Source: Muricea muricata
Taxonomy: Eukaryota > Cnidaria > Anthozoa > Malacalcyonacea > Plexauridae
DNA length: 64,000 nucleotides
Assembly: GCA_963855995.1 (NCBI GenBank)
Contig: OY979718.1
Location: 35,851,059 to 35,915,058, forward strand
Direction of reading: 5' to 3'
Shown here: positions 1 through 63,696 of the stretch, piece after piece
How positions within the stretch are numbered: the stretch's first letter is position 1
Layout of the letters: the number at the start of each line of letters is the position of its first letter
The notes under the pieces: model-generated
The model's database searches: none
The model's input: the letters and a program-made list of their open reading frames with translations, nothing else
What the model was told of the DNA's origin: nothing
Position numbers and translations under genes: made by a program

Positions 1-2267
1 TCCAAGGTACTGACGCCCAGGACATAAGCATAAGAATCGCTTCCAGTCGCTTTGCTCGGGTTTTGATGCACTTGGCTATTTCCACAAACCGATCCTCATG
101 CAAAGTATTCGACGAAAGAGACGAATGAATTTGCTTCGTTTTGTGACTAATATATTGTAGAAGAACATCATCAATTTGAAAACCATGTTGAACTCCATAT
201 TGCGTAATTTGGTTTTTAATGACGCTGGGAATTAGAGTGATGGCCAGGACACAGTCCAGCATTTTGAACATAATGCCAATCGGTGTTTCCTTCGTGAACT
301 CTGCCAAAGGAAGTTTACAGTGATAGTTGACATGAAGCTTTTGTAACTCTGTCAAATGTTCCACCAATAGGGCTAAACATGCAACAGGGTTGGAATTACT
401 CTCATTCGTTGATACTCTTACAAGAGCCGACCCGTATTCTTGGCTGATGATAATTGGTGTTGGCATATTGATGTAGTTGCTGTTTTCATCATTGCATGTA
501 CACACAACATCAAACAGAAGCTTGGCCATATCAAGCCCATTGTTGGGCCAGTCCTCTTTTTCTGCAATTTCCAATGAAACTACTCGTTTCTCCAACCACG
601 AAGACAAAAGATACACAGCATCCCGATCATTAACGGCACAGATGATAAAAGGGACAAGATATGACTTCAGCCACGAGACTATACTCGATGAGGGTAAATC
701 TGACCGAACAGATGCCAGGAGTTTTTGCAGCTTCTCACATGAAAAATCGCTCTCGAATTCTGTGTGGTGGCGTACCCAAATGACAGCTGCACTGGACAAC
801 TTTCCTTCACTAAGTGCTTGCGTTACTTTCTCCAACATACTTCCAGATAAGAACTGACGCCATTTGTGTCCACTGAACTGGGACTCTCCGTAAACCATCT
901 GAAACGTTTCAAGGCGGTGTATTGAAAAAAGAACATCATTGATTTCTTTGGTGTAGTTATTCTTTTCTTTACCAGAAGCCTTTCCGATTTTTTCTTTGGC
1001 AAAAGAGAGTAACCGGCGAACTTGCTGTAGTTGAGGAGGGGAAGCTGACAGGCAGCATTCAACACAAAATTCAATATTGTGTACGTTTTGAAGTGTCTTT
1101 TCCAGGTCATCAATAAGTTGCTCAACGGATTCGAGTTTATCGTCTGGATCGCTTTCCGATATCTTTGTCGATATACCAGCTAATAATGTACTTGCTTTTG
1201 CTTTGTAGACAAATTCTACATCTAATCCAAACGCTTTCGAAAACTCTAAAGCAGCATCATATCTCTTCTTTCTAACTAAACTGTAAACACGATGTGTAGG
1301 AGATGCTTCTGACAGGCATTTTAATGTCAAAGATTGGACATTGTTATTATCAGTTCCGCTGATGTAGTCTTCGGTATAATAGATCTTTTCTTGCATATTA
1401 GACTTGGCAAGACAGCAACTCTTGGCTACTTCTTTCGAATATATTTCTTGAAAAAAAGGCAACTGGTAGATCTTCAATTTGCTTTTTCCATCATCAGTTT
1501 CAATCAACGTGACAACTTGCCCTGCATCAGATGCCATGGTACTAGCTTCGATCGTCGCACCGCCACTCGTCAAAACAAAGTCCTTTACTGCATGGCAAGG
1601 AACTGACAATATTATCAATGTATTCGTATCCCAAACACTTAACTTTGATTCTTTATCTAACATAAGCAGATATTTATCATCAGGACTCACTTCACACTTT
1701 TTTACAGGGACACCATCTAAAAAGGATGTCTCAACTGCATCCACCAAACTTTGATCAGCCCACACGCTGAAAGCAACCTTTCCTGTTCCAGAGACGACTA
1801 ACGAGGGTTTACAACCGACAGAGGATTCTGCGCAACAGCTGGTATCGTCATGCATCTCTGAAACGTTCAAATTTTCTCTCTGGATGTTTTGCTTTAGTTG
1901 GCTGATGGCAGCAATATCATTCGACTCAAGCGCTTTCGACAATTCACGCAAGGGAAGATCTTTGAAAGAGAATACACATCCGTCATGCGATAAAATCGTA
2001 AGATTCACACCATCTCTTTCTCTATTGCTTGTAAACATAGAATGGCTAAAGTAAGCATCTGAACTTATTTCTTCTTGCGGTATCTCGACAAGAGTGGATG
2101 TGAACAACACTTCTCCAAGTGCAAAAGAAAAGAAATGCATAGTTCCCGAACTGTCACAGATGACTAGAAACTGCGAATCCGGACACCATGCCATTGTATC
2201 GACATTGCTTTCTAACGAAATACTCGTCGCAAAACTTGACTGCTCTCCATCGAATATAAATATTTCG
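1..2267 (-). pseudogene. KNTC1: KNTC1 copy 1, 5'-truncated, runs off the window
   Basis: This open minus-strand frame matches residues of about 67-821 of the complete copy at 18160-24801 almost perfectly. It includes most of the N-terminal beta-propeller and the start of the helical solenoid of Rod. It leaves the window at base 1 while still open. Its 5' end breaks at 2267, where homology to the intact gene stops and plus-strand hAT sequence begins. The frame stays open only a few codons past the break and has no ATG there. It therefore lacks the first ~67 codons and the normal promoter. It is probably a non-functional duplicate too young to have gained stops, though an abnormal transcript cannot be excluded. 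Confidence 0.85.
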
Positions 2268-3347
2268 CCACACAAGCTTCTGGGAATCGGTCAAACAAGA
2301 CGGTTATCTTTGGAATCGTGCGTTAGAAGGGTCCTCGAACAGTGGGATGCTCTCCGCCTTTATTTTACATCCGTGGTAAATGAGAAGAAAGATCCTTCAT
2401 ATACGACCGAGTCTATACCTAAAGGTCTTTCAAACAAGTATCTGAAAGCGCAGTTAGAGTTCCTAAGTTTCCAATTGCACCGCCTAAACGACTTCAACAC
2501 ATTATTCCAATCATCCGATCCTGTCCTTCATCATGTTCGCGACGAAGTACATAAGCTGCTGAAATGCATCCTGTCAGATTTCATGAAAATTGATGTTGTC
2601 AAGAGCTGTGATCCATTCACTGTGCCTCTCGATGACCCAATCAACAATGTTCATGTTGATCAAGTCTACGTTGGAATACTTGCAACAACGACGTTGCATG
2701 AATGCCATGAAATCGATCAAGATCCCCGAGCTGTTAGAAAGGTAAAGATGTCATGTCTGGAATTCATGCTGGAAGCAGTAAAGCAAATTAGATCGCGTTT
2801 TGACCTCAGTGATTCAGCTTATAAACTTGTTGAGTTTGTTCTTCCTGAGAATGCTGTGAAGTGCTGCCCTCCATGTCTCCAGGAGCTTTTCGTTAAATTT
2901 CCATATTTAACTGGTGTCGCAGATAAAATGCTAGTTGATGCAGAATGGCGAAAACAGGCGCTGGAAGAATCTTCAGAGATAAATAAAGATGAATCATCAT
3001 GGCAACTTTGGCAGAATCGTTTAAGTACGCGCACGTTCGATGGGAAATTGAAGTACGCTAATTTAATGAAAGTCATTGGTTGCATCATGTCCATACCTTC
3101 GTCAAATGCTGCGGTGGGAAGGCTATTTAGTCTTTTAAAGCTGGTCAAAACTGACACAAGAAACTCTTTAAAGAGAGAAAGTCTTGTCGGACTTCTTCAT
3201 ACCAAAGAAGGCCTCAGAGCGGAGTCTTGTCGTGCTCATGATTTGAAAACAAATCCCGAGCTTTTGACTCTTCTAAGGGCTTTCAAAAGCAATGCGACGG
3301 ATAGCGTAGCCAACCAACGGAACATGCTGCAATTATCAAGCCAGTAA
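2268..3347 (+). mobile_element. hAT-type transposase C-terminal fragment (unit A)
   Basis: This plus-strand open frame of about 360 codons ends at a TAA at 3345-3347. It resembles the C-terminal half of animal hAT transposases. Near its start is a TRRLSLESCVRRVLEQWDAL block, corresponding to the TRWLSL...VLEQW segment common in these proteins. Near its end is the hAT dimerisation signature (SIPSSNAAVGRLFSLLKLVK). The N-terminal half, with any BED finger and the first catalytic aspartate, is missing because the duplication breakpoint cuts the element at 2268. The frame happens to stay open leftward to 2094, but those 58 codons are antisense KNTC1 and not transposase. It cannot be autonomous. 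An intact N-terminal half should lie at the left end of the array, outside this window. Confidence 0.75.
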
Positions 3348-6300
3348 CATCGCGGATCTTTCCATAAACACTTTTCTAGTTTGACTCTTTGAGTTTTGTT
3401 AATGTTTTGTTAATGTTATCGTAGGAGCACTATAATTCTATATTATTATAAAGGCCCCCACACCAGACGCGATTTCGGATTTGGCAACATGGCCCGCCTT
3501 GTTACGTATTTCACCGACAATAAGTTTGATCCGGATTTAGTTAAAATATTTATTAGCGCTATCCAGAACACTTTGAATCTGTCTTCGATTAATCTGGTTT
3601 TCAATTGCGTATCTTTTATAGACGGTTTCAAAAACTAAGAAGAATATTACCATTCATTGCATGAATACTTTGACTCGAGCCAATATCTTTGTCTGAATGT
3701 CTAAATCTCAAAAATTCCTTAAAAAAATCCTTAAAAAATGGAATTCCTTACATAATTCCTTAAAACTTGCAAAATTCCTGTTTCTAAGGATAAATCCTTA
3801 GAAGTGAGAGCACTGTATATCAGTATGTAACTGGATGTGTAAAAATAGATGATGACAGAGTAAAAAAAATCAGTAACCAATTTCAGGACGCTATTGCGCG
3901 TAAGTTAAAACGTGAAATCATTTAACATTTTTATATTAAGAAAGATAAGGCTTTTGGTGCATGACACAATTTTTGTACAATAAGGACAAGAAATGAGCAA
4001 ATACATGTTGCATGTGAATAATCGTAGGAATAATTGAGGACGGTAATCTTCAAGCCCTTTTCAACAATTATATATCGTTTATAACACTATTTCAGATTTA
4101 TCATATTTTTGGTAGTACGTTTGTCTTTGTTAACGATATAACAGTTGTGATTGTTTCTGAAACTAGCGATTTATAAGTTCGTTTGGGAAGAAATTTCTGT
4201 CTTGGCTATTTTGTATCGAAGACTTGACAATTTAATATTGCCCTCGCTGACTTACGTCAAACGTCTACAGGGCTTCAAGCAACAATTTGTCGAACTTCCA
4301 GATAAGCTCCGGGGCTCAGAATAACCAAATTGCTACTCGTTCTTGGAGCTGAGCCCTTTTTGACATATGGCCTGGTTCCCGGTGCGCAACATGCCCGTGT
4401 ATGCATGCCAGATTATTTTAAAGAATAATAAAGATTCCAACATATTCAAAACATCTTCGCTATTTTTCTTCATATGGTAATAAAAATTTATTTACCTCAA
4501 ATTCCCAGGGGCAACTTAAAACTTGCGTTAGAGGTTATTTTATTTATTTTTTCTGACATTTAATTTCTGTTTTCTGACCTTGGATGGAACAACTTATTTT
4601 GCAGTGTTAAGTACAATTGTGCTACCGTAAAACCCCTCATAAAAGAACCATTTTGGCAACCAAAATACAAGAACTACTTCAGGCTGGAAAATTAAACTGG
4701 TTCTTAAAGAATCTGAATTAGCAGGTACTAGGAAGAAAACAAACACTGCAACGTTGCTAGCATCAATCGTGTCTTTCGGTCATGCATTGTTTCATCAAAA
4801 CTACAACTGTTCTTGAATCTGCCCGACCAACTTCTTTCGAACTCAATCCTAAAAACAAGTGAACCTCCTAAATTACAGCACTATTGTTGAAAGCAGCTAG
4901 TAGCCACTTTCCTAATTTATAGTTCCACATTATTCCAGTCAAAGACATGAGAAAGCGTTTCTTCCACAAGCAAATATTTTTGTGCTAAGCGAATAGATAG
5001 TGTTTATTTGTTCCGAGTAACTCCATCAACATTATACTGTTCTCCCTGGACTTGGAATTATGTGAAACTACTTGAACTAATCAGCCACACATAAAACACT
5101 CACGCCTTTCAATCAATGAAAAAGCTTCTTTTACAACATGTATATTATAAATATAATTTTATAATGTGAAAGTTTAAGAATAGTCAATGCAATAAACAAA
5201 TTTTCAGTTAATTTTTAACATGACAGCCCCCTGCCCAATTCATATACAGAAATTAAATTTCATATGGTTCAAACAGGTTCGGCGGGGATCTTGCGTTTAA
5301 GTGCCTACGAAACGAAATTTTGTCAAGTATTTTCTTGAATGCATCACAATATTGCAGGATTTTTGTAGCTGGTCTTTGTGGAGATTATCAGCTTTCATTG
5401 GATATGCAAATAATACGTGGACATCACACCGCATAATTAGTGTCTATGAAATTGCCTATATAACAAGCGAAAATAACTGAAGCTGCACGTGCCTGTGCGT
5501 AGGCTGTGATTAATCACTAGGCCCCCTCGTTTATGTGCAATCGTTCGACTACTTCTGTCTTTGCAATGTAACCAAGAAAATAGAGGACAAATTTTGTTTC
5601 TTATGCACTATATTTATAAGTAATGCAAACAGCTAGAAACATCACAATCATACACGAACCCAGCCCTCAACCGATACAGAACCTCTTATGCTTGTGAGTT
5701 ACTAACTACTGATTATCTAGTGACCGTTGAGCCACTAACATGCAAAACATTGAAGTCAGTAAGGCTCCTAAGATGTTCTTACTTAAACTTCCGACCAGTA
5801 GCGAAGCCAGCTTTACAATTTGGTCTTGCTATGCAAATTTAAACCATTATCATCATTCATTTCTTTAGAAATTGATCCTTACACGGTCTATAAACTCAGG
5901 AAAATTTGCATTTGCATGACCAAATGTCGGGCTGGTTTCGCCACTGCTTCTGAGTTTTGGTGAAAACCATACCGTCAATATACAACTGCCTCTATATTTT
6001 AGATTAAACTATAAATAAAGTTAATAATATATTTTTATATTCTATTTCGTGAAGATGTCAGCTTGTATTAGGTAAAACCTTAAATTACTTTTCTCACTGT
6101 GCTTTTCAGTATGCAGGTTTTGGATTTTAATAATTTAAAAAAATATTTGTGTGATGATAACACATGGTGATGACCTTACCAAATTGTAAAATCTGAATAA
6201 GACACACTAATGAGCAAGGGAACAATGACCGAGGGAACAAGTTCCATTAGATCAAATTTATTTACATGGAGGAAATGAAACCAAACATGTTCTCAAAATT

Positions 6301-6986: not shown

Positions 6987-9900
6987 TTAAAACACATCCA
7001 TAAAGTCAATATTTTCCAAAATATTGGAATCACCAGTGTCCAAGGGGGGTTTTTCGTCACAAACGATTGGCTTGTCAAATTCCGGTAGATGTGGAGCTGC
7101 TTCGTCCATTAGTCCAAATTTCTTCAAAAACGTAACCAAGTCTTCCAAACCAGCTACAGACGGTTCGATATCAAAATACGAACTTTTCATCTTCAGAGGT
7201 GAACCATGCATGTCGTAATATCGGGCCAACTCTATGGCGGCGTTAACGTCGCCGCGCTTCACCATCGTCATGACCATCTTTGGAAATTTCTTTTTACTGA
7301 TGAGGTAATCCGCAAATTTCAAATGGTGATCCGAATTTTGTAGAGATTCGTACGAGCCAGACTCATCAAGAAAGTCAAAAACAAGAGCCTGGGCAATGTC
7401 AGGGTTAACAAAACATTCACCAATCTCCCGTTCTTTGGATATTGCGTCCAAGATTTCCTTTGGGGTTGTAACGGACATCAGTTGGGTAAGGCTGCTAGAT
7501 AAAAGTTTTCGGGGTAGTAAAGGTAAGCATGCAAGTGCATGTGAGTGCATGCCAAGTTCCAACAGCTTCTCGAAGAGTGATGAGGTAACCGCTTGAGTCA
7601 TGATAGGACACTTCTGCAACAACTGCATGGATCTTCGGCAAAAGCTACTTTCTTCAGGAGATACAGGATGAACCGATTTCTGCAGCGACTGAACAGCAAA
7701 ATCTGTCCAAATCTTTACAAGGTTAGACGTTTGCCAAAGGTTTGGGAATTGAATAAGACGCGGTAGAAGGTTACCCAAGTACGTGGCTAGTCCAAGATGG
7801 GACAGCTGTCGAAGGATGTTCGTCCAAATCTGGGGGTCTGAAATCTTTGAATCTAAGCATATATCAGCAATCAGTAAAATTGCATGAGCGTTATCTTTGT
7901 GATTCTTCCAAAGACCTTTGACAAGACCTTCTTTGTTGCAACGCTGGAACGAATCAACGGTTTGATTTAAATGCAAGTGTTCTAGTTCGCAAAGATAAAC
8001 CAACGATTTCATGTAGTTCTTCAGGTCCTCGATTGTACCATTGGCAACGGATTCAATGACTTCCTGCGACGCAACGTTGAAAAGCAATTTCATTGCGCTA
8101 ACTCGGCTTTCGTACGTAATCTTGGACGGCCCCTGTCGATAAGCAAAATTCAAAAGGAAAAGAGCATTCTTGTGCACAGAATCAGCCTGCATTAGGTATA
8201 TGACACGCTTAAGGTTGCATTGATCTTTTGCTCGCTTTTCAGCTGTGGAATTTTCCGGAGATCTGATACCACGTGACGATGATGATGGTTGCCATTCCAT
8301 CAGCAAGCGATTGCGAACTTTTGTAATATTAAGATCACTTTTGGCCGCAATTTCATCCACAATCTTGTGAACATTTGGCCGTTTTTCGTCAGGTAAATAG
8401 CCATACGTTTCGTACAAATGGAAGATCAACTTCACGGGCTTTCGTTTGAGGTTTAAAGATCCCTCGTCTGTTACACCATTACAATGCAGAATAAATTGAA
8501 TAGCAATTTCTTGACATAAATCTTTCGAAGTCTTGAAGATCTTCTCTGCCAGTGGTAACTCGTCACCTTGGCAATTTGACTTCCATTGCAAGACTAACTC
8601 GACCAAAGCATTGGCGGCTTTTACCCTCTCTTCGCATTGGGGCCATCTGGAAAGTAGGGTTAGCCTTGTCTTTACTGCAACTTCTGAATTCTTTACTGCA
8701 GACAAGAGATCAGCTGCTTTTTCAAAATAAATACTCGCCAAAGGATTGCTGAGCACGGCTCCTTCCGCAGGCTTCTCAAACAAACAAGACGAAACCAAGT
8801 TGTTTGCGGCTGTGACGTACACTTGATCTTCTTGCATCTTCAGGATTTGGCAAAGACGAAGAAGTTTCGTGATGGTTTCGTCGTTCAACTCAGGTGCAAT
8901 AATTTTCCAAGGTTTTCCGTAGAACAGTGGATGAAAGGGTAATCTTTTCTCAGATAGGCTTGTTGATTGGACAGCATGTTCTTTCACTGTAAAGCTCGAC
9001 TCTTTTACTTGAAAATGTTCCTCATACTCCGATGGGGAAGAAATTCGCGTGTAATTGGTTAAAATATCCAGTACTTCGAGTTGTCTCCGGAAAACTTCTT
9101 TATCTTCATCGCTCGACAACATTATAATTTGATCCAAAACAACCGACAGTCGCTCGTAATCGTACAAAGGGAGAGAGAGAAGAACATCTTGCATCAAGAC
9201 TAACAGCTCGGGCGCACTTGACTGTTTGGACAAATAATCGAGTGCACCAACCAGATTTTCTTGAAAGTTGTTCCCGTTCGATGCATTGGAACCAGAACAA
9301 TTAATCCTATCATCCGTCAAACTAAATTTGATATAGTTTTGTAATGTACCTTCGACATTGATAAAAAACGACTTGCAAAACTCTATTATAACTTTCACAG
9401 CAACATCAGGCTTTTCTAAGAGAAGTTCCAGAACTTTTTTAACTTCTTTTGTTTCCCCAACCAATAGATTTTCACAAGATATATCAAGATTCTGGAGCTT
9501 AGCGTACCACAACGCCTCCGAGTACAATTCTTGAGCAGGATTGACAATTTTATCGTCGCAGAATCTTTTAGCAAAATTTAGTAAAACGTTGAATGCAGCA
9601 ATAGCTTGAACTGAATCGTGCCCTTCATCCACAGCAAAGTCTCCTTTTAACTTCTGGAGAGCTGCGTCTTCTGAAATGGAGCTCAGGTAACCGAGTGCTA
9701 TACTGTGGTCGATGTCATTGCTGTGTAGAACTTTGGACACAAGATTAAGCAACATCAAGGACACGCGTTGGACTCCATGTTCTCCCATTTTGTGTAGTAC
9801 CAGAGAGTTTTCTGTCAAATCACCGTCTCTACGTGCAACCTCGTCAACGGACGTGAAAACCAGAAGATGGCGTACTGAACAAAGGGCATAGTGCAAAGCT

Positions 9901-12900
9901 AACTCGTGAAGGTTGTTTTCTTCCAAGTAGAAAACCAAATCTCGGCAGGCAATTGTTAGTGTTTTCAAATGCTCAGCAGGACTTTTACTGACCAGTAGAA
10001 CTGACTTTACGAAGTTGTTGTAGAGCGCAAATGCAGTACCAATATCCAAGACAAAACCATTATCTCGAAACCGGCTGGCGACGTTCCAAGAGAGCAGTAG
10101 ATCGTCTCCACAAACTGACGTTGACAAACTAAGGTCACCACACTCACAGCTGCGGAAAAGCACTTCTGAGAACCAACATAATTTACACAATTCAAGATAA
10201 TTGCTCAGGTTAACAGCTCGACCGTTTGTTGCCGCGTAGGAAGCCAATCTGTAGAAAAATTCAGGAACATTGAAACCGGTTGACGATAAAATATCCTCCC
10301 CTTCGCCAACTTGTTGCTGCAAGAGTGCTTCGCACAGAGCAAAGACCTCGTCACCCGACAACTCATACATACTCTGCTTCAACCATTCATTGCAGATCGT
10401 CATCTTAGTCGAGTTAAAACTGTTCGGTTGATCAACAATGTACTGAAGCAAAATCCTGTTCTGCAACTGCACACGAGTGAGGCCAAATAAGCTTCCAAAC
10501 CGCTGGACTTTTTCGTCTTTCATATTAATTAATCGCTGCAGAGAAATACCACTCTTCTTCAGGTAAGCAGAAAGGATCTTGTCACTTGTGTCTATGTTTC
10601 TGTAGTCGCTACACGTTACAAATATAGAAAACTCTTTCTCGAGAGCTTGAATGCTTTTCAGAGTTTTGAGAGTATCTTTCATATCTTCTGTAATCTTACC
10701 GATGTTTCGGAGAAACTCTAAGGTGTGAATTCCAGCTTCGAGAACTAACATGCGCTCACTGCGATCGTCGTCAGTGTCCTCATAAACATCGACAGAAAGT
10801 GACACCCATCTGAGGAAATGCTGGGCAACAAGCATTACTTTCGAATCATCGACACCGGCCAGCAACTGAGCGCAATTATCAGGTAGCCCTTTTAAGCACA
10901 AATTCCTGAGCCTGATGACATAAATATCTTCTTCAGAAATGCATTGATACGCTTCTACAATTCGCAAAGCATCTTCCAACGCGGTCGTATGCGATGTGCT
11001 GAGTATATACTTGATCGTGTTTCTAAGATGTACATCACTCGAAAATTCGACATCACGAATACCATAGTGGGTGAGAATTTTCTTGATTCCCATTAAACGA
11101 TAGCTCATCTTCAGATCGGGATTAGACGAGTCATCCTGCATTGCTTTGCTAACCATTGCTTCAATTGTGCTGCTCCAAGGTACTGACGCCCAGGACATAA
11201 GCATAAGAATCGCTTCCAGTCGCTTTGCTCGGGTTTTGATGCACTTGGCTATTTCCACAAACCGATCCTCATGCAAAGTATTCGACGAAAGAGACGAATG
11301 AATTTGCTTCGTTTTGTGACTAATATATTGTAGAAGAACATCATCAATTTGAAAACCATGTTGAACTCCATATTGCGTAATTTGGTTTTTAATGACGTTG
11401 GGAATTAGAGTGATGGCCAGGACACAGTCCAGCATTTTGAACATAATGCCAATCGGTGTTTCCTTCGTGAACTCTGCCAAAGGAAGTTTACAGTGATAGT
11501 TGACATGAAGCTTTTGTAACTCTGTCAAATGTTCCACCAATAGGGCTAAACATGCAACAGGGTTGGAATTACTCTCATTCGTTGATACTCTTACAAGAGC
11601 CGACCCGTATTCTTGGCTGATAATAATTGGTGTTGGCATATTGATGTAGTTGCTGTTTTCATCATTGCATGTACACACAACATCAAACAGAAGCTTGGCC
11701 ATATCAAGCCCATTGTTGGGCCAGTCCTCTTTTTCTGCAATTTCCAATGAAACTACTCGTTTCTCCAACCACGAAGACAAAAGATACACAGCATCCCGAT
11801 CATTAACGGCACAGATGATAAAAGGAACAAGATATGACTTCAGCCACGAGACTATACTCGATGAGGGTAAATCTGACCGAACAGATGCCAGGAGTTTTTG
11901 CAGCTTCTCACATGAAAAATCGCTCTCGAATTCTGTGTGGTGGCGTACCCAAATGACAGCTGCACTGGACAACTTTCCTTCACTAAGTGCTTGCGTTACT
12001 TTCTCCAACATACTTCCAGATAAGAACTGACGCCATTTGTGTCCACTGAACTGGGACTCTCCGTAAACCATCTGAAACGTTTCAAGGCGGTGTATTGAAA
12101 AAAGAACATCATTGATTTCTTTGGTGTAGTTATTCTTTTCTTTACCAGAAGCCTTTCCGATTTTTTCTTTGGCAAAAGAGAGTAACCGGCGAACTTGCTG
12201 TAGTTGAGGAGGGGAAGCTGACAGGCAGCATTCAACACAAAATTCAATATTGTGTACGTTTTGAAGTGTCTTTTCCAGGTCATCAATAAGTTGCTCAACG
12301 GATTCGAGTTTATCGTCTGGATCGCTTTCCGATATCTTTGTCGATATACCAGCTAATAATGTACTTGCTTTTGCTTTGTAGACAAATTCTACATCTAATC
12401 CAAACGCTTTCGAAAACTCTAAAGCAGCATCATATCTCTTCTTTCTAACTAAACTGTAAACACGATGTGTAGGAGATGCTTCTGACAGGCATTTTAATGT
12501 CAAAGATTGGACATTGTTATTATCAGTTCCGCTGATGTAGTCTTCGGTATAATAGATCTTTTCTTGCATATTAGACTTGGCAAGACAGCAACTCTTGGCT
12601 ACTTCTTTCGAATATATTTCTTGAAAAAAAGGCAACTGGTAGATCTTCAATTTGCTTTTTCCATCATCAGTTTCAATCAACGTGACAACTTGCCCTGCAT
12701 CAGATGCCATGGTACTAGCTTCGATCGTCGCACCGCCACTCGTCAAAACAAAGTCCTTTACTGCATGGCAAGGAACTGACAATATTATCAATGTATTCGT
12801 ATCCCAAACACTTAACTTTGATTCTTTATCTAACATAAGCAGATATTTATCATCAGGACTCACTTCACACTTTTTTACAGGGACACCATCTAAAAAGGAT

Positions 12901-13440
12901 GTCTCAACTGCATCCACCAAACTTTGATCAGCCCACACGCTGAAAGCAACCTTTCCTGTTCCAGAGACGACTAACGAGGGTTTACAACCGACAGAGGATT
13001 CTGCGCAACAGCTGGTATCGTCATGCATCTCTGAAACGTTCAAATTTTCTCTCTGGATGTTTTGCTTTAGTTGGCTGATGGCAGCAATATCATTCGACTC
13101 AAGCGCTTTCGACAATTCACGCAAGGGAAGATCTTTGAAAGAGAATACACATCCGTCATGCGATAAAATCGTAAGATTCACACCATCTCTTTCTCTATTG
13201 CTTGTAAACATAGAATGGCTAAAGTAAGCATCTGAACTTATTTCTTCTTGCGGTATCTCGACAAGAGTGGATGTGAACAACACTTCTCCAAGTGCAAAAG
13301 AAAAGAAATGCATAGTTCCCGAACTGTCACAGATGACTAGAAACTGCGAATCCGGACACCATGCCATTGTATCGACATTGCTTTCTAACGAAATACTCGT
13401 CGCAAAACTTGACTGCTCTCCATCGAATATAAATATTTCG
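6987..13440 (-). pseudogene. KNTC1: KNTC1 copy 2, 5'-truncated, frame intact
   Basis: This is an uninterrupted minus-strand frame of about 2,150 codons with a TAA at 6987-6989. It is nearly identical to the complete copy at 18160-24801 from about residue 67 to the end. I count five amino-acid differences (N/S, S/L, F/L, E/K and G/D changes). It covers most of the beta-propeller, the whole alpha-solenoid and the Rod C-terminal region. The first ~67 codons are missing: at 13440/13441 KNTC1 sequence switches to hAT sequence. The frame continues five or six codons past the break, and the first ATG is about 24 codons inside, within the propeller. Without promoter, first exon and ATG it is best called a young truncated duplicate. 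Translation from an internal Met is possible but unproven. Confidence 0.85.
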
Positions 13441-14520
13441 CCACACAAGCTTCTGGGAATCGGTCAAACAAGACGGTTATCTTTGGAATCGTGCGTTAGA
13501 AGGGTCCTCGAACAGTGGGATGCTCTCCGCCTTTATTTTACATCCGTGGTAAATGAGAAGAAAGATCCTTCATATACGACCGAGTCTATACCTAAAGGTC
13601 TTTCAAACAAGTATCTGAAAGCGCAGTTAGAGTTCCTAAGTTTCCAATTGCACCGCCTAAACGACTTCAACACATTATTCCAATCATCCGATCCTGTCCT
13701 TCATCATGTTCGCGACGAAGTACATAAGCTGCTGAAATGCATCCTGTCAGATTTCATGAAAATTGATGTTGTCAAGAGCTGTGATCCATTCACTGTGCCT
13801 CTCGATGACCCAATCAACAATGTTCATGTTGATCAAGTCTACGTTGGAATACTTGCAACAACGACGTTGCATGAATGCCATGAAATCGATCAAGATCCCC
13901 GAGCTGTTAGAAAGGTAAAGATGTCATGTCTGGAATTCATGCTGGAAGCAGTAAAGCAAATTAGATCGCGTTTTGACCTCAGTGATTCAGCTTATAAACT
14001 TGTTGAGTTTGTTCTTCCTGAGAATGCTGTGAAGTGCTGCCCTCCATGTCTCCAGGAGCTTTTCGTTAAATTTCCATATTTAACTGGTGTCGCAGATAAA
14101 ATGCTAGTTGATGCAGAATGGCGAAAACAGGCGCTGGAAGAATCTTCAGAGATAAATAAAGATGAATCATCATGGCAACTTTGGCAGAATCGTTTAAGTA
14201 CGCGCACGTTCGATGGGAAATTGAAGTACGCTAATTTAATGAAAGTCATTGGTTGCATCATGTCCATACCTTCGTCAAATGCTGCGGTGGGAAGGCTATT
14301 TAGTCTTTTAAAGCTGGTCAAAACTGACACAAGAAACTCTTTAAAGAGAGAAAGTCTTGTCGGACTTCTTCATACCAAAGAAGGCCTCAGAGCGGAGTCT
14401 TGTCGTGCTCATGATTTGAAAACAAATCCCGAGCTTTTGACTCTTCTAAGGGCTTTCAAAAGCAATGCGACGGATAGCGTAGCCAACCAACGGAACATGC
14501 TGCAATTATCAAGCCAGTAA
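13441..14520 (+). mobile_element. hAT-type transposase C-terminal fragment (unit B)
   Basis: This is the second copy of the fragment at 2268-3347, with the same translated sequence in the open frame ending at 14520. It carries the same TRRLSL...VLEQW block and hAT dimerisation signature. It lies directly against the broken 5' end of KNTC1 copy 2. The frame stays open leftward to 13267 through antisense KNTC1, giving a chance chimeric frame of 417 codons. It shows no independent decay. Confidence 0.75.
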
Positions 14521-17500
14521 CATCGCGGATCTTTCCATAAACACTTTTCTAGTTTGACTCTTTGAGTTTTGTTAATGTTTTGTTAATGTTATCGTAGGAG
14601 CACTATAATTCTATATTATTATAAAGGCCCCCACACCAGACGCGATTTCGGATTTGGCAACATGGCCCGCCTTGTTACGTATTTCACCGACAATAAGTTT
14701 GATCCGGATTTAGTTAAAATATTTATTAGCGCTATCCAGAACACTTTGAATCTGTCTTCGATTAATCTGGTTTTCAATTGCGTATCTTTTATAGACGGTT
14801 TCAAAAACTAAGAAGAATATTACCATTCATTGCATGAATACTTTGACTCGAGCCAATATCTTTGTCTGAATGTCTAAATCTCAAAAATTCCTTAAAAAAA
14901 TCCTTAAAAAATGGAATTCCTTACATAATTCCTTAAAACTTGCAAAATTCCTGTTTCTAAGGATAAATCCTTAGAAGTGAGAGCACTGTATATCAGTATG
15001 TAACTGGATGTGTAAAAATAGATGATGACAGAGTAAAAAAAATCAGTAACCAATTTCAGGACGCTATTGCGCGTAAGTTAAAACGTGAAATCATTTAACA
15101 TTTTTATATTAAGAAAGATAAGGCTTTTGGTGCATGACACAATTTTTGTACAATAAGGACAAGAAATGAGCAAATACATGTTGCATGTGAATAATCGTAG
15201 GAATAATTGAGGACGGTAATCTTCAAGCCCTTTTCAACAATTATATATCGTTTATAACACTATTTCAGATTTATCATATTTTTGGTAGTACGTTTGTCTT
15301 TGTTAACGATATAACAGTTGTGATTGTTTCTGAAACTAGCGATTTATAAGTTCGTTTGGGAAGAAATTTCTGTCTTGGCTATTTTGTATCGAAGACTTGA
15401 CAATTTAATATTGCCCTCGCTGACTTACGTCAAACGTCTACAGGGCTTCAAGCAACAATTTGTCGAACTTCCAGATAAGCTCCGGGGCTCAGAATAACCA
15501 AATTGCTACTCGTTCTTGGAGCTGAGCCCTTTTTGACATATGGCCTGGTTCCCGGTGCGCAACATGCCCGTGTATGCATGCCAGATTATTTTAAAGAATA
15601 ATAAAGATTCCAACATATTCAAAACATCTTCGCTATTTTTCTTCATATGGTAATAAAAATTTATTTACCTCAAATTCCCAGGGGCAACTTAAAACTTGCG
15701 TTAGAGGTTATTTTATTTATTTTTTCTGACATTTAATTTCTGTTTTCTGATCTTGGATGGAACAACTTATTTTGCAGTGTTAAGTACAATTGTGCTACCG
15801 TAAAACCCCTCATAAAAGAACCATTTTGGCAACCAAAATACAAGAACTACTTCAGGCTGGAAAATTAAACTGGTTCTTAAAGAATCTGAATTAGCAGGTA
15901 CTAGGAAGAAAACAAACACTGCAACGTTGCTAGCATCAATCGTGTCTTTCGGTCATGCATTGTTTCATCAAAACTACAACTGTTCTTGAATCTGCCCGAC
16001 CAACTTCTTTCGAACTCAATCCTAAAAACAAGTGAACCTCCTAAATTACAGCACTATTGTTGAAAGCAGCTAGTAGCCACTTTCCTAATTTATAGTTCCA
16101 CATTATTCCAGTCAAAGACATGAGAAAGCGTTTCTTCCACAAGCAAATATTTTTGTGCTAAGCGAATAGATAGTGTTTATTTGTTCCGAGTAACTCCATC
16201 AACATTATACTGTTCTCCCTGGACTTGGAATTATGTGAAACTACTTGAACTAATCAGCCACACATAAAACACTCACGCCTTTCAATCAATGAAAAAGCTT
16301 CTTTTACAACATGTATATTATAAATATAATTTTATAATGTGAAAGTTTAAGAATAGTCAATGCAATAAACAAATTTTCAGTTAATTTTTAACATGACAGC
16401 CCCCTGCCCAATTCATATACAGAAATTAAATTTCATATGGTTCAAACAGGTTCGGCGGGGATCTTGCGTTTAAGTGCCTACGAAACGAAATTTTGTCAAG
16501 TATTTTCTTGAATGCATCACAATATTGCAGGATTTTTGTAGCTGGTCTTTGTGGAGATTATCAGCTTTCATTGGATATGCAAATAATACGTGGACATCAC
16601 ACCGCATAATTAGTGTCTATGAAATTGCCTATATAACAAGCGAAAATAACTGAAGCTGCACGTGCCTGTGCGTAGGCTGTGATTAATCACTAGGCCCCCT
16701 CGTTTATGTGCAATCGTTCGACTACTTCTGTCTTTGCAATGTAACCAAGAAAATAGAGGACAAATTTTGTTTCTTATGCACTATATTTATAAGTAATGCA
16801 AACAGCTAGAAACATCACAATCATACACGAACCCAGCCCTCAACCGATACAGAACCTCTTATGCTTGTGAGTTACTAACTACTGATTATCTAGTGACCGT
16901 TGAGCCACTAACATGCAAAACATTGAAGTCAGTAAGGCTCCTAAGATGTTCTTACTTAAACTTCCGACCAGTAGCGAAGCCAGCTTTACAATTTGGTCTT
17001 GCTATGCAAATTTAAACCATTATCATCATTCATTTCTTTAGAAATTGATCCTTACACGGTCTATAAACTCAGGAAAATTTGCATTTGCATGACCAAATGT
17101 CGGGCTGGTTTCGCCACTGCTTCTGAGTTTTGGTGAAAACCATACCGTCAATATACAACTGCCTCTATATTTTAGATTAAACTATAAATAAAGTTAATAA
17201 TATATTTTTATATTCTATTTCGTGAAGATGTCAGCTTGTATTAGGTAAAACCTTAAATTACTTTTCTCACTGTGCTTTTCAGTATGCAGGTTTTGGATTT
17301 TAATAATTTAAAAAAATATTTGTGTGATGATAACACATGGTGATGACCTTACCAAATTGTAAAATCTGAATAAGACACACTAATGAGCAAGGGAACAATG
17401 ACCGAGGGAACAAGTTCCATTAGATCAAATTTATTTACATGGAGGAAATGAAACCAAACATGTTCTCAAAATTTGAGAAAAGCCAGTAAACGAATATAGC

Positions 17501-18159
17501 AAAAAAGTACAATTTCAAGCACAAAGCTTGCGTGAAAAAACAATACAGGCTGGCACCTTTCTGCAAAGTATTTTTTTATCAATATGTCCAATTCTAATTT
17601 ATAACGGGTAGAACAAGAATTTTCTTACCCCCAAAATACATGTACAAGTTATATGCAATAAATGTTTATCATCTGGAAGTATTACTTTGCACGATTTTGA
17701 ACTCACGCGTTGGAGCACTAAATACACCATATTCAGCGAAAACGTAAGTTAAATACTTATGTCAGGGCTTTTTGTGAATACATAAGCAATGCGAGCTAAA
17801 TAAAAGCATGTTTTGCGCACCAAATATAAACATAGAGCAGGGGCTGTTTTGCCCACTAATGGGGGCAATAATACCCCTTATTGCTTGTTGAGTGAAAATT
17901 TTATCTTTTGTATTTTTACTGGTATTGCTTAAATATTTAAAGGGGAGGGAGCTCTCAAGCCAAACAAAAATGCCCCAACTTATTTACATGTTCAATCCCT
18001 CCTGTGGATAAAGATTTTAGCGCAACATGTCGAGTTTCTGCTTGTGATTCCGCACATGCATGCACGTTTGCAGAACCGTGCAAAATATACTTATAAAACA
18101 AAACAAAACAAAAAACTATATATGTCACACAGTGCAAGCACCGTCCATTTTGCTGACGT
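14521..18159. other. Gene-free spacer of unit B (3.6 kb)
   Basis: This is the copy of 3348-6986, with only isolated substitutions (for example T at 15755 where unit A has C). No gene was recognised. The stretch left of 18160 should include the 3' UTR of the intact KNTC1. A minus-strand AATAAA lies near 17429-17434, about 730 bp past the stop. I see no poly(T) run on the plus strand that would mark a retrocopy tail. Confidence 0.6.
16969..17123. mobile_element. Fold-back MITE-like element, GCGAAGCC family (unit B)
   Basis: This is the tandem-array copy of the element at 5796-5950, with the same inverted arms. It was duplicated with the unit and is not an independent insertion. Confidence 0.6.
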
Positions 18160-21100
18160 TTAAAACACATCCATAAAGTCAATATTTTCCAAAATATTGG
18201 AATCACCAGTGTCCAAGGGGGGTTTTTCGTCACAAACGATTGGCTTGTCAAATTCCGGTAGATGTGGAGCTGCTTCGTCCATTAGTCCAAATTTCTTCAA
18301 AAACGTAACCAAGTCTTCCAAACCAGCTACAGACGGTTCGATATCAAAATACGAACTTTTCATCTTCAGAGGTGAACCATGCATGTCGTAATATCGGGCC
18401 AACTCTATGGCGGCGTTAACGTCGCCGCGCTTCACCATCGTCATGACCATCTTTGGAAATTTCTTTTTACTGATGAGGTAATCCGCAAATTTCAAATGGT
18501 GATCCGAATTTTGTAGAGATTCGTACGAGCCAGACTCATCAAGAAAGTCAAAAACAAGAGCCTGGGCAATGTCAGGGTTAACAAAACATTCACCAATCTC
18601 CCGTTCTTTGGATATTGCGTCCAAGATTTCCTTTGGGGTTGTAACGGACATCAGTTGGGTAAGGCTGCTAGATAAAAGTTTTCGGGGTAGTAAAGGTAAG
18701 CATGCAAGTGCATGTGAGTGCATGCCAAGTTCCAACAGCTTCTCGAAGAGTGATGAGGTAACCGCTTGAGTCATGATAGGACACTTCTGCAACAACTGCA
18801 TGGATCTTCGGCAAAAGCTACTTTCTTCAGGAGATACAGGATGAACCGATTTCTGCAGCGACTGAACAGCAAAATCTGTCCAAATCTTTACAAGGTTAGA
18901 CGTTTGCCAAAGGTTTGGGAATTGAATAAGACGCGGTAGAAGGTTACCCAAGTACGTGGCTAGTCCAAGATGGGACAGCTGTCGAAGGATGTTCGTCCAA
19001 ATCTGGGGGTCTGAAATCTTTGAATCTAAGCATATATCAGCAATCAGTAAAATTGCATGAGCGTTATCTTTGTGATTCTTCCAAAGACCTTTGACAAGAC
19101 CTTCTTTGTTGCAACGCTGGAACGAATCAACGGTTTGATTTAAATGCAAGTGTTCTAGTTCGCAAAGATAAACCAACGATTTCATGTAGTTCTTCAGGTC
19201 CTCGATTGTACCATTGGCAACGGATTCAATGACTTCCTGCGACGCAACGTTGAAAAGCAATTTCATTGCGCTAACTCGGCTTTCGTACGTAATCTTGGAC
19301 GGCCCCTGTCGATAAGCAAAATTCAAAAGGAAAAGAGCATTCTTGTGCACAGAATCAGCCTGCATTAGGTATATGACACGCTTAAGGTTGCATTGATCTT
19401 TTGCTCGCTTTTCAGCTGTGGAATTTTCCGGAGATCTGATACCACGTGACGATGATGATGGTTGCCATTCCATCAGCAAGCGATTGCGAACTTTTGTAAT
19501 ATTAAGATCACTTTTGGCCGCAATTTCATCCACAATCTTGTGAACATTTGGCCGTTTTTCGTCAGGTAAATAGCCATACGTTTCGTACAAATGGAAGATC
19601 AACTTCACGGGCTTTCGTTTGAGGTTTAAAGATCCCTCGTCTGTTACACCATTACAATGCAGAATAAATTGAATAGCAATTTCTTGACATAAATCTTTCG
19701 AAGTCTTGAAGATCTTCTCTGCCAGTGGTAACTCGTCACCTTGGCAATTTGACTTCCATTGCAAGACTAACTCGACCAAAGCATTGGCGGCTTTTACTCT
19801 CTCTTCGCATTGGGGCCATCTGGAAAGTAGGGTTAGCCTTGTCTTTACTGCAACTTCTGAATTCTTTACTGCAGACAAGAGATCAGCTGCTTTTTCAAAA
19901 TAAATACTCGCCAAAGGATTGCTGAGCACGGCTCCTTCCGCAGGCTTCTCAAACAAACAAGACGAAACCAAGTTGTTTGCGGCTGTGACGTACACTTGAT
20001 CTTCTTGCATCTTCAGGATTTGGCAAAGACGAAGAAGTTTCGTGATGGTTTCGTCGTTCAACTCAGGTGCAATAATTTTCCAAGGTTTTCCGTAGAACAG
20101 TGGATGAAAGGGTAATCTTTTCTCAGATAGGCTTGTTGATTGGACAGCATGTTCTTTCACTGTAAAGCTCGACTCTTTTACTTGAAAATGTTCCTCATAC
20201 TCCGATGGGGAAGAAATTCGCGTGTAATTGGTTAAAATATCCAGTACTTCGAGTTGTCTCCGGAAAACTTCTTTATCTTCATCGCTCGACAACATTATAA
20301 TTTGATCCAAAACAACCGACAGTCGCTCGTAATCGTACAAAGGGAGAGAGAGAAGAACATCTTGCATCAAGACTAACAGCTCGGGCGCACTTGACTGTTT
20401 GGACAAATAATCGAGTGCACCAACCAGATTTTCTTGAAAGTTGTTCCCGTTCGATGCATTGGAACCAGAACAATTAATCCTATCATCCGTCAAACTAAAT
20501 TTGATATAGTTTTGTAGTGTATCTTCGACATTGATAAAAAACGACTTGCAAAACTCTATTATAACTTTCACAGCAACATCAGGCTTTTCTAAGAGAAGTT
20601 CCAGAACTTTTTTAACTTCTTTTGTTTCCCCAACCAATAGATTTTCACAAGATATATCAAGATTCTGGAGCTTAGCGTACCACAACGCCTCCGAGTACAA
20701 TTCTTGAGCAGGATTGACAATTTTATCGTCGCAGAATCTTTTAGCAAAATTTAGTAAAACGTTGAATGCAGCAATAGCTTGAACTGAATCGTGCCCTTCA
20801 TCCACAGCAAAGTCTCCTTTTAACTTCTGGAGAGCTGCGTCTTCTGAAATGGAGCTCAGGTAACCGAGTGCTATACTGTGGTCGATATCATTGCTGTGTA
20901 GAACTTTGGACACAAGATTAAGCAACATCAAGGACACGCGTTGGACTCCATGTTCTCCCATTTTGTGTAGTACCAGAGAGTTTTCTGTCAAATCACCGTC
21001 TCTACGTGCAACCTTGTCAACGGACGTGAAAACCAGAAGATGGCGTACTGAACAAAGGGCATAGTGCAAAGCTAACTCGTGAAGGTTGTTTTCTTCCAAG

Positions 21101-24100
21101 TAGAAAACCAAATCTCGGCAGGCAATTGTTAGTGTTTTCAAATGCTCAGCAGGACTTTTACTGACCAGTAGAACTGACTTTACGAAGTTGTTGTAGAGCG
21201 CAAATGCAGTACCAATATCCAAGACAAAACCATTATCTCGAAACCGGCTGGCGACGTTCCAAGAGAGCAGTAGATCGTCTCCACAAACTGACGTTGACAA
21301 ACTAAGGTCACCACACTCACAGCTGCGGAAAAGCACTTCTGAGAGCCAACATAATTTACACAATTCAAGATAATTGCTCAGGTTAACAGCTCGACCGTTT
21401 GTTGCCGCGTAGGAAGCCAATCTGTAGAAAAATTCAGGAACATTGAAACCGGTTGACGATAAAATATCCTCCCCTTCGCCAACTTGTTGCTGCAAGAGTG
21501 CTTCGCACAGAGCAAAGACCTCGTCACCCGACAACTCATACATACTCTGCTTCAACCATTCATTGCAGATCGTCATCTTAGTCGAGTTAAAACTGTTCGG
21601 TTGATCAACAATGTACTGAAGCAAAATCCTGTTCTGCAACTGCACACGAGTGAGGCCAAATAAGCTTCCAAACCGCTGGACTTTTTCGTCTTTCATATTA
21701 ATTAATCGCTGCAGAGAAATACCACTCTTCTTCAGGTAAGCAGAAAGGATCTTGTCACTTGTGTCTATGTTTCTGTAGTCGCTACACGTTACAAATATAG
21801 AAAACTCTTTCTCGAGAGCTTGAATGCTTTTCAGAGTTTTGAGAGTATCTTTCATATCTTCTGTAATCTTACCGATGTTTCGGAGAAACTCTAAGGTGTG
21901 AATTCCAGCTTCGAGAACTAACATGCGCTCACTGCGATCGTCGTCAGTGTCCTCATAAACATCGACAGAAAGTGACACCCATCTGAGGAAATGCTGGGCA
22001 ACAAGCATTACTTTCGAATCATCGACACCGGCCAGCAACTGAGCGCAATTATCAGGTAGCCCTTTTAAGCACAAATTCCTGAGCCTGATGACATAAATAT
22101 CTTCTTCAGAAATGCATTGATACGCTTCTACAATTCGCAAAGCATCTTCCAACGCGGTCGTATGCGATGTGCTGAGTATATACTTGATCGTGTTTCTAAG
22201 ATGTACATCACTCGAAAATTCGACATCACGAATACCATAGTGGGTGAGAATTTTCTTGATTCCCATTAAACGATAGCTCATCTTCAGATCGGGATTAGAC
22301 GAGTCATCCTGCATTGCTTTGCTAACCATTGCTTCAATTGTGCTGCTCCAAGGTACTGACGCCCAGGACATAAGCATAAGAATCGCTTCCAGTCGCTTTG
22401 CTCGGGTTTTGATGCACTTGGCTATTTCCACAAACCGATCCTCATGCAAAGTATTCGACGAAAGAGACGAATGAATTTGCTTCGTTTTGTGACTAATATA
22501 TTGTAGAAGAACATCATCAATTTGAAAACCATGTTGAACTCCATATTGCGTAATTTGGTTTTTAATGACGTTGGGAATTAGAGTGATGGCCAGGACACAG
22601 TCCAGCATTTTGAACATAATGCCAATCGGTGTTTCCTTCGTGAACTCTGCCAAAGGAAGTTTACAGTGATAGTTGACATGAAGCTTTTGTAACTCTGTCA
22701 AATGTTCCACCAATAGGGCTAAACATGCAACAGGGTTGGAATTACTCTCATTCGTTGATACTCTTACAAGAGCCGACCCGTATTCTTGGCTGATAATAAT
22801 TGGTGTTGGCATATTGATGTAGTTGCTGTTTTCATCATTGCATGTACACACAACATCAAACAGAAGCTTGGCCATATCAAGCCCATTGTTGGGCCAGTCC
22901 TCTTTTTCTGCAATTTCCAATGAAACTACTCGTTTCTCCAACCACGAAGACAAAAGATACACAGCATCCCGATCATTAACGGCACAGATGATAAAAGGAA
23001 CAAGATATGACTTCAGCCACGAGACTATACTCAATGAGGGTAAATCTGACCGAACAGATGCCAGGAGTTTTTGCAGCTTCTCACATGAAAAATCGCTCTC
23101 GAATTCTGTGTGGTGGCGTACCCAAATGACAGCTGCACTGGACAACTTTCCTTCACTAAGTGCTTGCGTTACTTTCTCCAACATACTTCCAGATAAGAAC
23201 TGACGCCATTTGTGTCCACTGAACTGGGACTCTCCGTAAACCATCTGAAACGTTTCAAGGCGGTGTATTGAAAAAAGAACATCACTGATTTCTTTGGTGT
23301 AGTTATTCTTTTCTTTACCAGAAGCCTTTCCGATTTTTTCTTTGGCAAAAGAGAGTAGCCGGCGAACTTGCTGTAGTTGAGGAGGGGAAGCTGACAGGCA
23401 GCATTCAACACAAAATTCAATATTGTGTACGTTTTGAAGTGTCTTTTCCAGGTCATCAATAAGTTGCTCAACGGATTCGAGTTTATCGTCTGGATCGCTT
23501 TCCGATATCTTTGTCGATATACCAGCTAATAATGTACTTGCTTTTGCTTTGTAGACAAATTCTACATCTAATCCAAACGCTTTCGAAAACTCTAAAGCAG
23601 CATCATATCTCTTCTTTCTAACTAAACTGTAAACACGATGTGTAGGAGATGCTTCTGACAGGCATTTTAATGTCAAAGATTGGACATTGTTATTATCAGT
23701 TCCGCTGATGTAGTCTTCGGTATAATAGATCTTTTCTTGCATATTAGACTTGGCAAGACAGCAACTCTTGGCTACTTCTTTCGAATATATTTCTTGAAAA
23801 AAAGGCAACTGGTAGATCTTCAATTTGCTTTTTCCATCATCAGTTTCAATCAACGTGACAACTTGCCCTGCATCAGATGCCATGGTACTAGCTTCGATCG
23901 TCGCACCGCCACTCGTCAAAACAAAGTCCTTTACTGCATGGCAAGGAACTGACAATATTATCAATGTATTCGTATCCCAAACACTTAACTTTGATTCTTT
24001 ATCTAACATAAGCAGATATTTATCATCAGGACTCACTTCACACTTTTTTACAGGGACACCATCTAAAAAGGATGTCTCAACTGCATCCACCAAACTTTGA

Positions 24101-24801
24101 TCAGCCCACACGCTGAAAGCAACCTTTCCTGTTCCAGAGACGACTAACGAGGGTTTACAACCGACAGAGGATTCTGCGCAACAGCTGGTATCGTCATGCA
24201 TCTCTGAAACGTTCAAATTTTCTCTCTGGATGTTTTGCTTTAGTTGGCTGATGGCAGCAATATCATTCGACTCAAGCGCTTTCGACAATTCACGCAAGGG
24301 AAGATCTTTGAAAGAGAATACACACCCGTCATGCGATAAAATCGTAAGATTCACACCATCCCTTTCTCTATTGCTTGTAAACATAGAATGGCTAAAGTAA
24401 GCATCTGAACTTATTTCTTCTTGCGGTATCTCGACAAGAGTGGATGTGAACAACACTTCTCCAAGTGCAAAAGAAAAGAAATGCATCGTTCCCGAACTGT
24501 CACAGATGACTAGAAACTGCGAATCCGGACACCATGCCATTGTATCGACATTGCTTTCTAACGAAATACTCGTCGCAAAACTTGACTGCTCTCCATCGAA
24601 TATAAATATTTCGTTGAAGATTGAGAGAGCGATTCCCCCTGAAGATACTGCAGTGTTTGTGACAAGCGCTTGGTTCTCCGCTCTCCCATCTGACGTAATT
24701 CTAGCAAGCTCATCTGCTTTGTATAAAGCACCACTTTGTTCTCTTCTAAATAAATGCAAAGTCGGTTTAATGTTTGTCGAGACTGTTGGCGTCTGCCGTA
24801 C
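18160..24801 (-). CDS. KNTC1: Kinetochore-associated protein 1 (Rod), main coding exon
   Basis: Rod is the scaffold of the Rod-ZW10-Zwilch complex. At unattached kinetochores this complex recruits dynein/Spindly and Mad1-Mad2 for the spindle checkpoint. The frame of about 2,210 codons is close to the ~2,209 residues of the human protein. Similarity starts at SGALYKADELARI (residue ~26). An N-terminal beta-propeller of about 400 residues follows, then a long alpha-solenoid. Rod-like blocks include RLPFHPLFYG (~1,565) and GLVKGLWKNH (~1,910). The TAA is at 18160-18162. No ATG precedes residue 91, and an in-frame TGA lies at 24826-24828. A CAG acceptor at 24802-24804 with pyrimidines upstream suggests this is the last exon, entered in phase 0 from an unseen 5' exon. 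One exon of 6.6 kb is odd, since vertebrate KNTC1 has dozens. It may be the functional copy of the array. Confidence 0.9.
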   Translation of the reverse strand, partial: VRQTPTVSTNIKPTLHLFRREQSGALYKADELARITSDGRAENQALVTNTAVSSGGIALSIFNEIFIFDGEQSSFATSISLESNVDTMAWCPDSQFLVICDSSGTMHFFSFALGEVLFTSTLVEIPQEEISSDAYFSHSMFTSNRERDGVNLTILSHDGCVFSFKDLPLRELSKALESNDIAAISQLKQNIQRENLNVSEMHDDTSCCAESSVGCKPSLVVSGTGKVAFSVWADQSLVDAVETSFLDGVPVKKCEVSPDDKYLLMLDKESKLSVWDTNTLIILSVPCHAVKDFVLTSGGATIEASTMASDAGQVVTLIETDDGKSKLKIYQLPFFQEIYSKEVAKSCCLAKSNMQEKIYYTEDYISGTDNNNVQSLTLKCLSEASPTHRVYSLVRKKRYDAALEFSKAFGLDVEFVYKAKASTLLAGISTKISESDPDDKLESVEQLIDDLEKTLQNVHNIEFCVECCLSASPPQLQQVRRLLSFAKEKIGKASGKEKNNYTKEISDVLFSIHRLETFQMVYGESQFSGHKWRQFLSGSMLEKVTQALSEGKLSSAAVIWVRHHTEFESDFSCEKLQKLLASVRSDLPSLSIVSWLKSYLVPFIICAVNDRDAVYLLSSWLEKRVVSLEIAEKEDWPNNGLDMAKLLFDVVCTCNDENSNYINMPTPIIISQEYGSALVRVSTNESNSNPVACLALLVEHLTELQKLHVNYHCKLPLAEFTKETPIGIMFKMLDCVLAITLIPNVIKNQITQYGVQHGFQIDDVLLQYISHKTKQIHSSLSSNTLHEDRFVEIAKCIKTRAKRLEAILMLMSWASVPWSSTIEAMVSKAMQDDSSNPDLKMSYRLMGIKKILTHYGIRDVEFSSDVHLRNTIKYILSTSHTTALEDALRIVEAYQCISEEDIYVIRLRNLCLKGLPDNCAQLLAGVDDSKVMLVAQHFLRWVSLSVDVYEDTDDDRSERMLVLEAGIHTLEFLRNIGKITEDMKDTLKTLKSIQALEKEFSIFVTCSDYRNIDTSDKILSAYLKKSGISLQRLINMKDEKVQRFGSLFGLTRVQLQNRILLQYIVDQPNSFNSTKMTICNEWLKQSMYELSGDEVFALCEALLQQQVGEGEDILSSTGFNVPEFFYRLASYAATNGRAVNLSNYLELCKLCWLSEVLFRSCECGDLSLSTSVCGDDLLLSWNVASRFRDNGFVLDIGTAFALYNNFVKSVLLVSKSPAEHLKTLTIACRDLVFYLEENNLHELALHYALCSVRHLLVFTSVDKVARRDGDLTENSLVLHKMGEHGVQRVSLMLLNLVSKVLHSNDIDHSIALGYLSSISEDAALQKLKGDFAVDEGHDSVQAIAAFNVLLNFAKRFCDDKIVNPAQELYSEALWYAKLQNLDISCENLLVGETKEVKKVLELLLEKPDVAVKVIIEFCKSFFINVEDTLQNYIKFSLTDDRINCSGSNASNGNNFQENLVGALDYLSKQSSAPELLVLMQDVLLSLPLYDYERLSVVLDQIIMLSSDEDKEVFRRQLEVLDILTNYTRISSPSEYEEHFQVKESSFTVKEHAVQSTSLSEKRLPFHPLFYGKPWKIIAPELNDETITKLLRLCQILKMQEDQVYVTAANNLVSSCLFEKPAEGAVLSNPLASIYFEKAADLLSAVKNSEVAVKTRLTLLSRWPQCEERVKAANALVELVLQWKSNCQGDELPLAEKIFKTSKDLCQEIAIQFILHCNGVTDEGSLNLKRKPVKLIFHLYETYGYLPDEKRPNVHKIVDEIAAKSDLNITKVRNRLLMEWQPSSSSRGIRSPENSTAEKRAKDQCNLKRVIYLMQADSVHKNALFLLNFAYRQGPSKITYESRVSAMKLLFNVASQEVIESVANGTIEDLKNYMKSLVYLCELEHLHLNQTVDSFQRCNKEGLVKGLWKNHKDNAHAILLIADICLDSKISDPQIWTNILRQLSHLGLATYLGNLLPRLIQFPNLWQTSNLVKIWTDFAVQSLQKSVHPVSPEESSFCRRSMQLLQKCPIMTQAVTSSLFEKLLELGMHSHALACLPLLPRKLLSSSLTQLMSVTTPKEILDAISKEREIGECFVNPDIAQALVFDFLDESGSYESLQNSDHHLKFADYLISKKKFPKMVMTMVKRGDVNAAIELARYYDMHGSPLKMKSSYFDIEPSVAGLEDLVTFLKKFGLMDEAAPHLPEFDKPIVCDEKPPLDTGDSNILENIDFMDVF

Positions 24802-62701: not shown

Positions 62702-62806
<105 letters not shown>

Positions 62807-63171: not shown

Positions 63172-63696
<525 letters not shown>

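Follow-up and report, generated by a model that had tools for sequence, protein, structure and literature searches.

A recent three-unit tandem array of KNTC1 and hAT transposon sequence in Muricea muricata, with a mosaic middle unit and two 5′-truncated gene copies

Anatomy of the tandem array

We analysed a window of 64,000 nucleotides from Muricea muricata (contig OY979718.1, here C3; the window is C3:35851059-35915058), together with its left flank (C3:35811059-35851058), in an assembly of 453 Mb in 74 contigs. The left part of the window carries the gene for KNTC1 (Rod) and part of a hAT transposon in a direct repeat. When the window was aligned to itself, one long direct repeat was found, with positions 1-13440 matching 11174-24613 at an offset of 11,173 and 99.88% identity (16 mismatches and no gaps over 13,440 bases). 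With the left flank included, the assembly contains a head-to-tail array of three units, which we call U1, U2 and U3. U1 lies mostly to the left of the window (C3:35839147-35853325, as defined by self-alignment and the assembly flank) and only its right end, 1-2267, falls inside; U2 occupies 2268-13440 and U3 13441-24613. Only in U3 does the sequence carry on into the native 5′ region of KNTC1. Within the assembly the tandem repeat is genuine, with a clear anatomy. A preliminary description of this DNA had the array continuing leftwards with an unknown copy number; the continuation is borne out by U1, and the count is settled as three in the assembly, with U1 the first unit.

All units had also been described as equal in length to the base. 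This holds for U2 and U3, each 11,173 bp long and separated, as described, only by isolated substitutions (13 sites, no gap), but not for U1, which spans 14,179 bp. An insertion of 3,009 bp with the terminal inverted repeat AGGTTACAGTCGCATCTGCGCATGC is present in U1 and missing from U2 and U3; without it U1 measures 11,170 bp and has three small indels. The 16 differences within the window show a marked bias, with 15 being transitions. Across all three units the bias is milder, at 39 transitions to 10 transversions. Decay of CpG sites was considered as the cause of the in-window bias and rejected, because a CpG is present in a unit at just three of the 16 differences. Fifteen of the 16 also fall in coding DNA, an excess that weakens once U1 is added, as its private differences are found in the hAT element and in non-coding DNA as well.

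The two junctions within the array, at 2267/2268 (U1/U2) and 13440/13441 (U2/U3), had been placed exactly to the base, and the self-alignment confirms both. At 2267..2268 KNTC1 coding sequence is joined head-to-head to the hAT element, and 13440..13441 is the same over the 61 + 60 bases printed. The array begins, at the start of U1, inside the hAT transposon, and ends at 24613..24614 within a coding exon of KNTC1. The native left flank reads ...CTAAG|CCACAC, both junctions read ...TTTCG|CCACAC and the native right flank reads ...TTTCG|TTGAAG, so that a single G is common to both native flanks at the break. The duplication join was thus made with essentially no homology (1 bp, G).

The hAT element and KNTC1 are convergent. 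The only place where the hAT frame is whole is the left end of the array, where in U1 it reaches leftwards beyond the repeat; this frame has 714 codons, a Dimer_Tnp_hAT domain and a DUF4371 match below cut-off. KNTC1 continues in the 5′ direction only at the right end. The 3′ half of the hAT element, carrying Dimer_Tnp_hAT, is found on the + strand at 2268..3815 in U2, cut at the junction and ending in ...GAGAGCACTG, and as an offset copy at 13441..14988 (+ strand) in U3. Because the two genes converge, the duplication yields extra copies that lack the 5′ ends of both.

The KNTC1 copies and their coding state

All three units contain a long KNTC1 frame on the − strand without a stop. In U3 the frame runs from 18163 to 24825 (2221 codons, stop to stop). 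The 5′-truncated frame of U2 covers 6990..13463 (2158 codons), and that of U1 (2157 codons, C3:35846878-35853348) has its 5′ part in the window at 2..2290. The Pfam domains KNTC1_N, ARM_KNTC1_1st, ARM_KNTC1_2nd, ARM_KNTC1_3rd and Rod_C are found above cut-off and in this order in both U3 and U2, and residues 27-2079 of the U3 frame match the human KNTC1 chain 7qpg_R in one stretch (E 7.5e-195). The gene in the array is therefore KNTC1/Rod, as first proposed. Compared with the human protein of the RZZ complex, the same five domains are present, but here in one exon of ∼6.6 kb and in three genomic copies, two of which have no 5′ end.

The missing end can be followed codon by codon. Residue 72 of the U3 frame is the first whose codon is also present in the U1 and U2 frames, and residues 1-71 have no counterpart there; the protein alignment of the copies begins at residue 65 because it runs slightly past the junction. 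Both truncated frames open with 8 codons of antisense hAT sequence, and the KNTC1_N profile is matched from position 50 in U2 as against position 5 in U3. All three frames have the same first in-frame ATG, codon 96 of the U3 frame (13367 in U2), with A at −3 and G at +4, which is a strong start context. If U1 or U2 were translated, the product would start at this shared ATG and would lose the start of the beta-propeller.

Just past the repeat, U3 has an apparent splice acceptor (TTACAG|GTACGG), which would place the start of the exon at ∼24801. For the first exon of U3, looked for as ATGTGG or as a short in-frame exon with a GT[AG][AG]G donor in phase 0, there was no convincing candidate, only one short frame at 30753. 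A genome-wide protein search gave three KNTC1 matches at E <= 0.001, all of them in the array and none with a stop. The array had initially been presented as amplification of a spindle-checkpoint scaffold gene. This is misleading, as U1 and U2 lack the KNTC1 5′ end, any exon before the apparent ∼24801 acceptor and the native 5′ flank. Amplification of the whole gene is rejected, since the repeat ends inside a coding exon and the two copies have no 5′ end.

Nearly the whole KNTC1 protein is encoded in the one coding exon (18163-24801), whereas a neighbouring gene of the TruD/PUS7 type is split. Vertebrate KNTC1 has many introns. A single large exon would fit intron loss by way of reverse transcription, and a retro-origin is possible. 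The features bearing on this are mixed: there is one large exon, yet the apparent splice acceptor is kept, and the genome search offered no KNTC1 elsewhere for comparison. Inspection by eye showed no poly-A tract immediately downstream of the exon, and no intronless or retrogene form of KNTC1 or rough deal was among the literature matches listed.

The only coding indel, in U1, is 3 bp long and keeps the frame. With two gap-touched codon columns left out, there are 27 substituted codons, 17 of them synonymous and 10 replacements. Without constraint, 68-77% of the changes would be expected to be replacements, according to the transition weight chosen; for 10 in 27, P is 9e-4 at 68% and 6e-5 at 74%. 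For the U1-type branch (5 replacements in 15) the corresponding values are 0.006 and 0.001. In these coding differences the U1 and U3 lineages are not separated, and allelic variants that predate the duplication may be among them. When a constrained U3 lineage was allowed for as a rough mixture (fraction 0.595, our own rough estimate), P rose to ∼0.04. The codon counts thus give a hint, not proof, that the truncated copies may be under constraint.

Mosaic structure of U2 and origin of the array

With the U1 insertion set aside, the three units differ at 52 sites. Thirty-nine are private to U1 (36 substitutions and 3 small indels), nine to U3 and four to U2. Their distribution along the unit is strongly asymmetric. 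Up to unit position 9559, sites grouping U2 with U3 outnumber those grouping it with U1 by 39:3 (36:3 for substitutions alone), and from position 9593 onwards the ratio is 0:6, with or without indels. None of 20,000 permutations in a maximum chi-square test equalled the observed split, whether or not indels were counted. The divergence of U1 from U3 is even across this point (0.41% to the left, 0.38% to the right), so it is U2 alone that switches partner. On the left, U2 has 7 differences from U3 in 9.5 kb, and on the right none from U1. Window positions 11860, 12112 and 13152 are among the sites that set U3 apart from U1 and U2. U2 is therefore a mosaic of U3-like and U1-like sequence, and the putative crossover interval is 11826..11860 of the window, between flanking informative sites 34 bp apart. 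The array had been called either very young or a product of assembly. A young array is borne out overall, but its copies are not of uniform age, as the U1-U3 divergence and the seven U2-U3 differences make clear.

Unequal crossing-over between two-copy arrays produces a new middle unit whose left part comes from the right-hand parent and whose right part comes from the left-hand parent. The order seen in U2, left from U3 and right from U1, matches this prediction. We consider it probable that an illegitimate duplication was later expanded by unequal crossing-over, leaving U1 and U2 as inert truncated copies. To judge from the junctions, one illegitimate tandem duplication would have joined a point in the hAT element to a point in the KNTC1 exon, giving a two-copy array of U1 and U3; the 3.0-kb insertion in U1 most likely arrived later as a transposon. 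U3 on one chromatid would then have mispaired with U1 on another, and a crossover at unit position 9559-9593 would have produced the hybrid U2. None of these processes, duplication, truncation or unequal crossing-over, goes beyond the textbook, and the array is an ordinary recent duplication.

Under the same history, the native promoter most likely drives a normal KNTC1 in U3. Since U3 is the only copy with the native 5′ side and there are only three KNTC1 matches genome-wide, normal Rod probably comes from U3 alone. The likeliest state of U1 and U2 is that of 5′-truncated duplicates that have no promoter and are turning into pseudogenes, their frames presumably still open because they are young.

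Two observations weigh against this account. The number of replacements is low for a purely neutral decaying copy, unless many of the differences are old allelic variants or changes on the U3 lineage. In addition, six of the seven U2-U3 differences in the left part cluster at unit positions 6358-7905, so a simple sister-chromatid crossover does not explain everything; the clustering points to a possible contribution from different haplotypes or from a conversion tract. Gene conversion could be given the larger role, with three copies diverging in parallel and U2 being made U3-like on the left and U1-like on the right. The sites private to U2 and to U3 in the same 6358-7905 cluster do suggest some conversion, but to build the whole of U2 would need a tract of ∼9.5 kb or several tracts, where one crossover gives the arrangement for free, and we regard conversion as a very improbable origin of the mosaic. 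An artefact of assembly is rather less remote, if still unlikely. Each haplotype might have fewer real units, for example two, with the assembler passing from U3 of one into U1 of the other. Such a mis-join would mimic the hybrid pattern of unequal crossing-over, and the 7 differences between U2 and U3 in the left 9.5 kb could be allelic. However, there is no N in the 104 kb examined, the switch takes place within 34 bp, for which an overlap-based assembler would need a real molecule or noisy reads, and both the 3-kb insertion and the small indels of U1 are peculiar to it. Even with a mis-join, one or more of the tandem junctions would have to be real.

The low proportion of replacements also bears on whether U1 and U2, which are located downstream of U3 and share its orientation, do anything at all. 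The truncated copies could be expressed and selected, for example as an N-terminally shortened Rod that can reach kinetochores but binds Zwilch and Spindly poorly. The frames of all three units remain open over 2157-2221 codons, the gap in the KNTC1 frame of U1 preserves the reading frame, replacements are fewer than expected without constraint, and the ATG that all three have as their first carries A at −3 and G at +4. Human Rod that lacks residues 1-375 is reported to be found at kinetochores yet to prevent recruitment of Zwilch and Spindly, and an elegans deletion of residues 1-372 is described in the same paper as assembling filaments more readily (PMC6224608). Fewer residues are missing here than in the deletion that was tested, any promoter, first exon or transcript of U1 and U2 is hypothetical, selection cannot be tested firmly at so low a divergence, and some of that divergence may sit on the constrained U3 lineage (P ∼0.04 with the rough mixture). 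We therefore give expression under selection a slim chance. The fuller proposal, that the array is a working source of shortened Rod, with U1 and U2 transcribed, translated from the shared ATG and kept by selection or a drive-like advantage, is slimmer still; transcription may in that case come from read-through of U3 or run antisense to the hAT element. Inert, young, promoterless copies are the default reading of U1 and U2.

Surrounding elements and known systems

The whole hAT element lies at approximately C3:35837673-35840694 and belongs to a multi-copy family. At three other chosen places, sequence matches the main part of the element at 97-98% and its left-end piece at 88-94%, and two of the three end short of the right end of the element. 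The right end is GAGAGCACTG, which we take to be a ‘CAGTG-type’ hAT end. The right flank is TATATCAG, and this sequence, which would form an 8-bp target-site duplication if repeated on the left, was not seen immediately in front of the apparent left end (∼C3:35837673). No family could be assigned to the U1 insertion from Pfam on three of its frames or from a repeat search of part of the insertion. Another hAT copy, L017:2721-5503, has within 0.5 kb of it a sequence (L017:5986-7252) that is 87-92% like parts of the U1 insertion, so that the two kinds of element are neighbours at a second place. Remains of another hAT are also present in the window at 56512-58044 (+ strand), with the frame 57643-58044 matching Dimer_Tnp_hAT.

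To the left of the hAT element is a TruD/PUS7-type gene that is split across several open frames. The one ZW10_N match extends over only 46 of 93 profile positions, and the search tool reports a single TAG within it; a partial match of this kind would fit a split gene. Elsewhere in the window there is an inverted repeat pair (37128-37467 and 39129-39477, 94.6% identical, 1.7 kb apart), a perfect tandem repeat with a 21-bp unit (58512-58625, 5.4 copies), and an (AT)n run and a long AT-rich self-complementary array (62706-62805 and 63328-63696). An Rfam scan of the window gave 0 matches at gathering scores.

No tandem KNTC1 array was among the literature matches listed, in which the match for KNTC1 and tandem duplication was a survey of the Jurkat cell line. 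The closest case seen is the F locus of cucumber, with a tandem duplication of 30.2 kb (CsACS1/CsACS1G/CsBCAT) in which BCAT exons 9 and 10 are joined to the second CsACS1, and where the authors ascribe copy loss to unequal crossing-over (PMC7072070). Both are head-to-tail repeats of more than one gene, with a breakpoint inside a gene and a part for unequal crossing-over. The unit length, the genes and the kingdom differ, and the KNTC1 array removes the 5′ end of both flanking genes.

In the KNTC1 array, both steps of an array's birth can be read from one assembly: the join of a transposon to an exon, and then an apparent unequal crossing-over with the switch confined to 34 bp. Were the truncated copies expressed, Rod would have naturally occurring N-terminal deletions; on the much less likely proposal of a working source of shortened Rod, a protein without the start of its propeller would alter recruitment of Zwilch and Spindly or corona assembly. 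A higher KNTC1 gene count here would mean truncated copies and not extra checkpoint scaffold.

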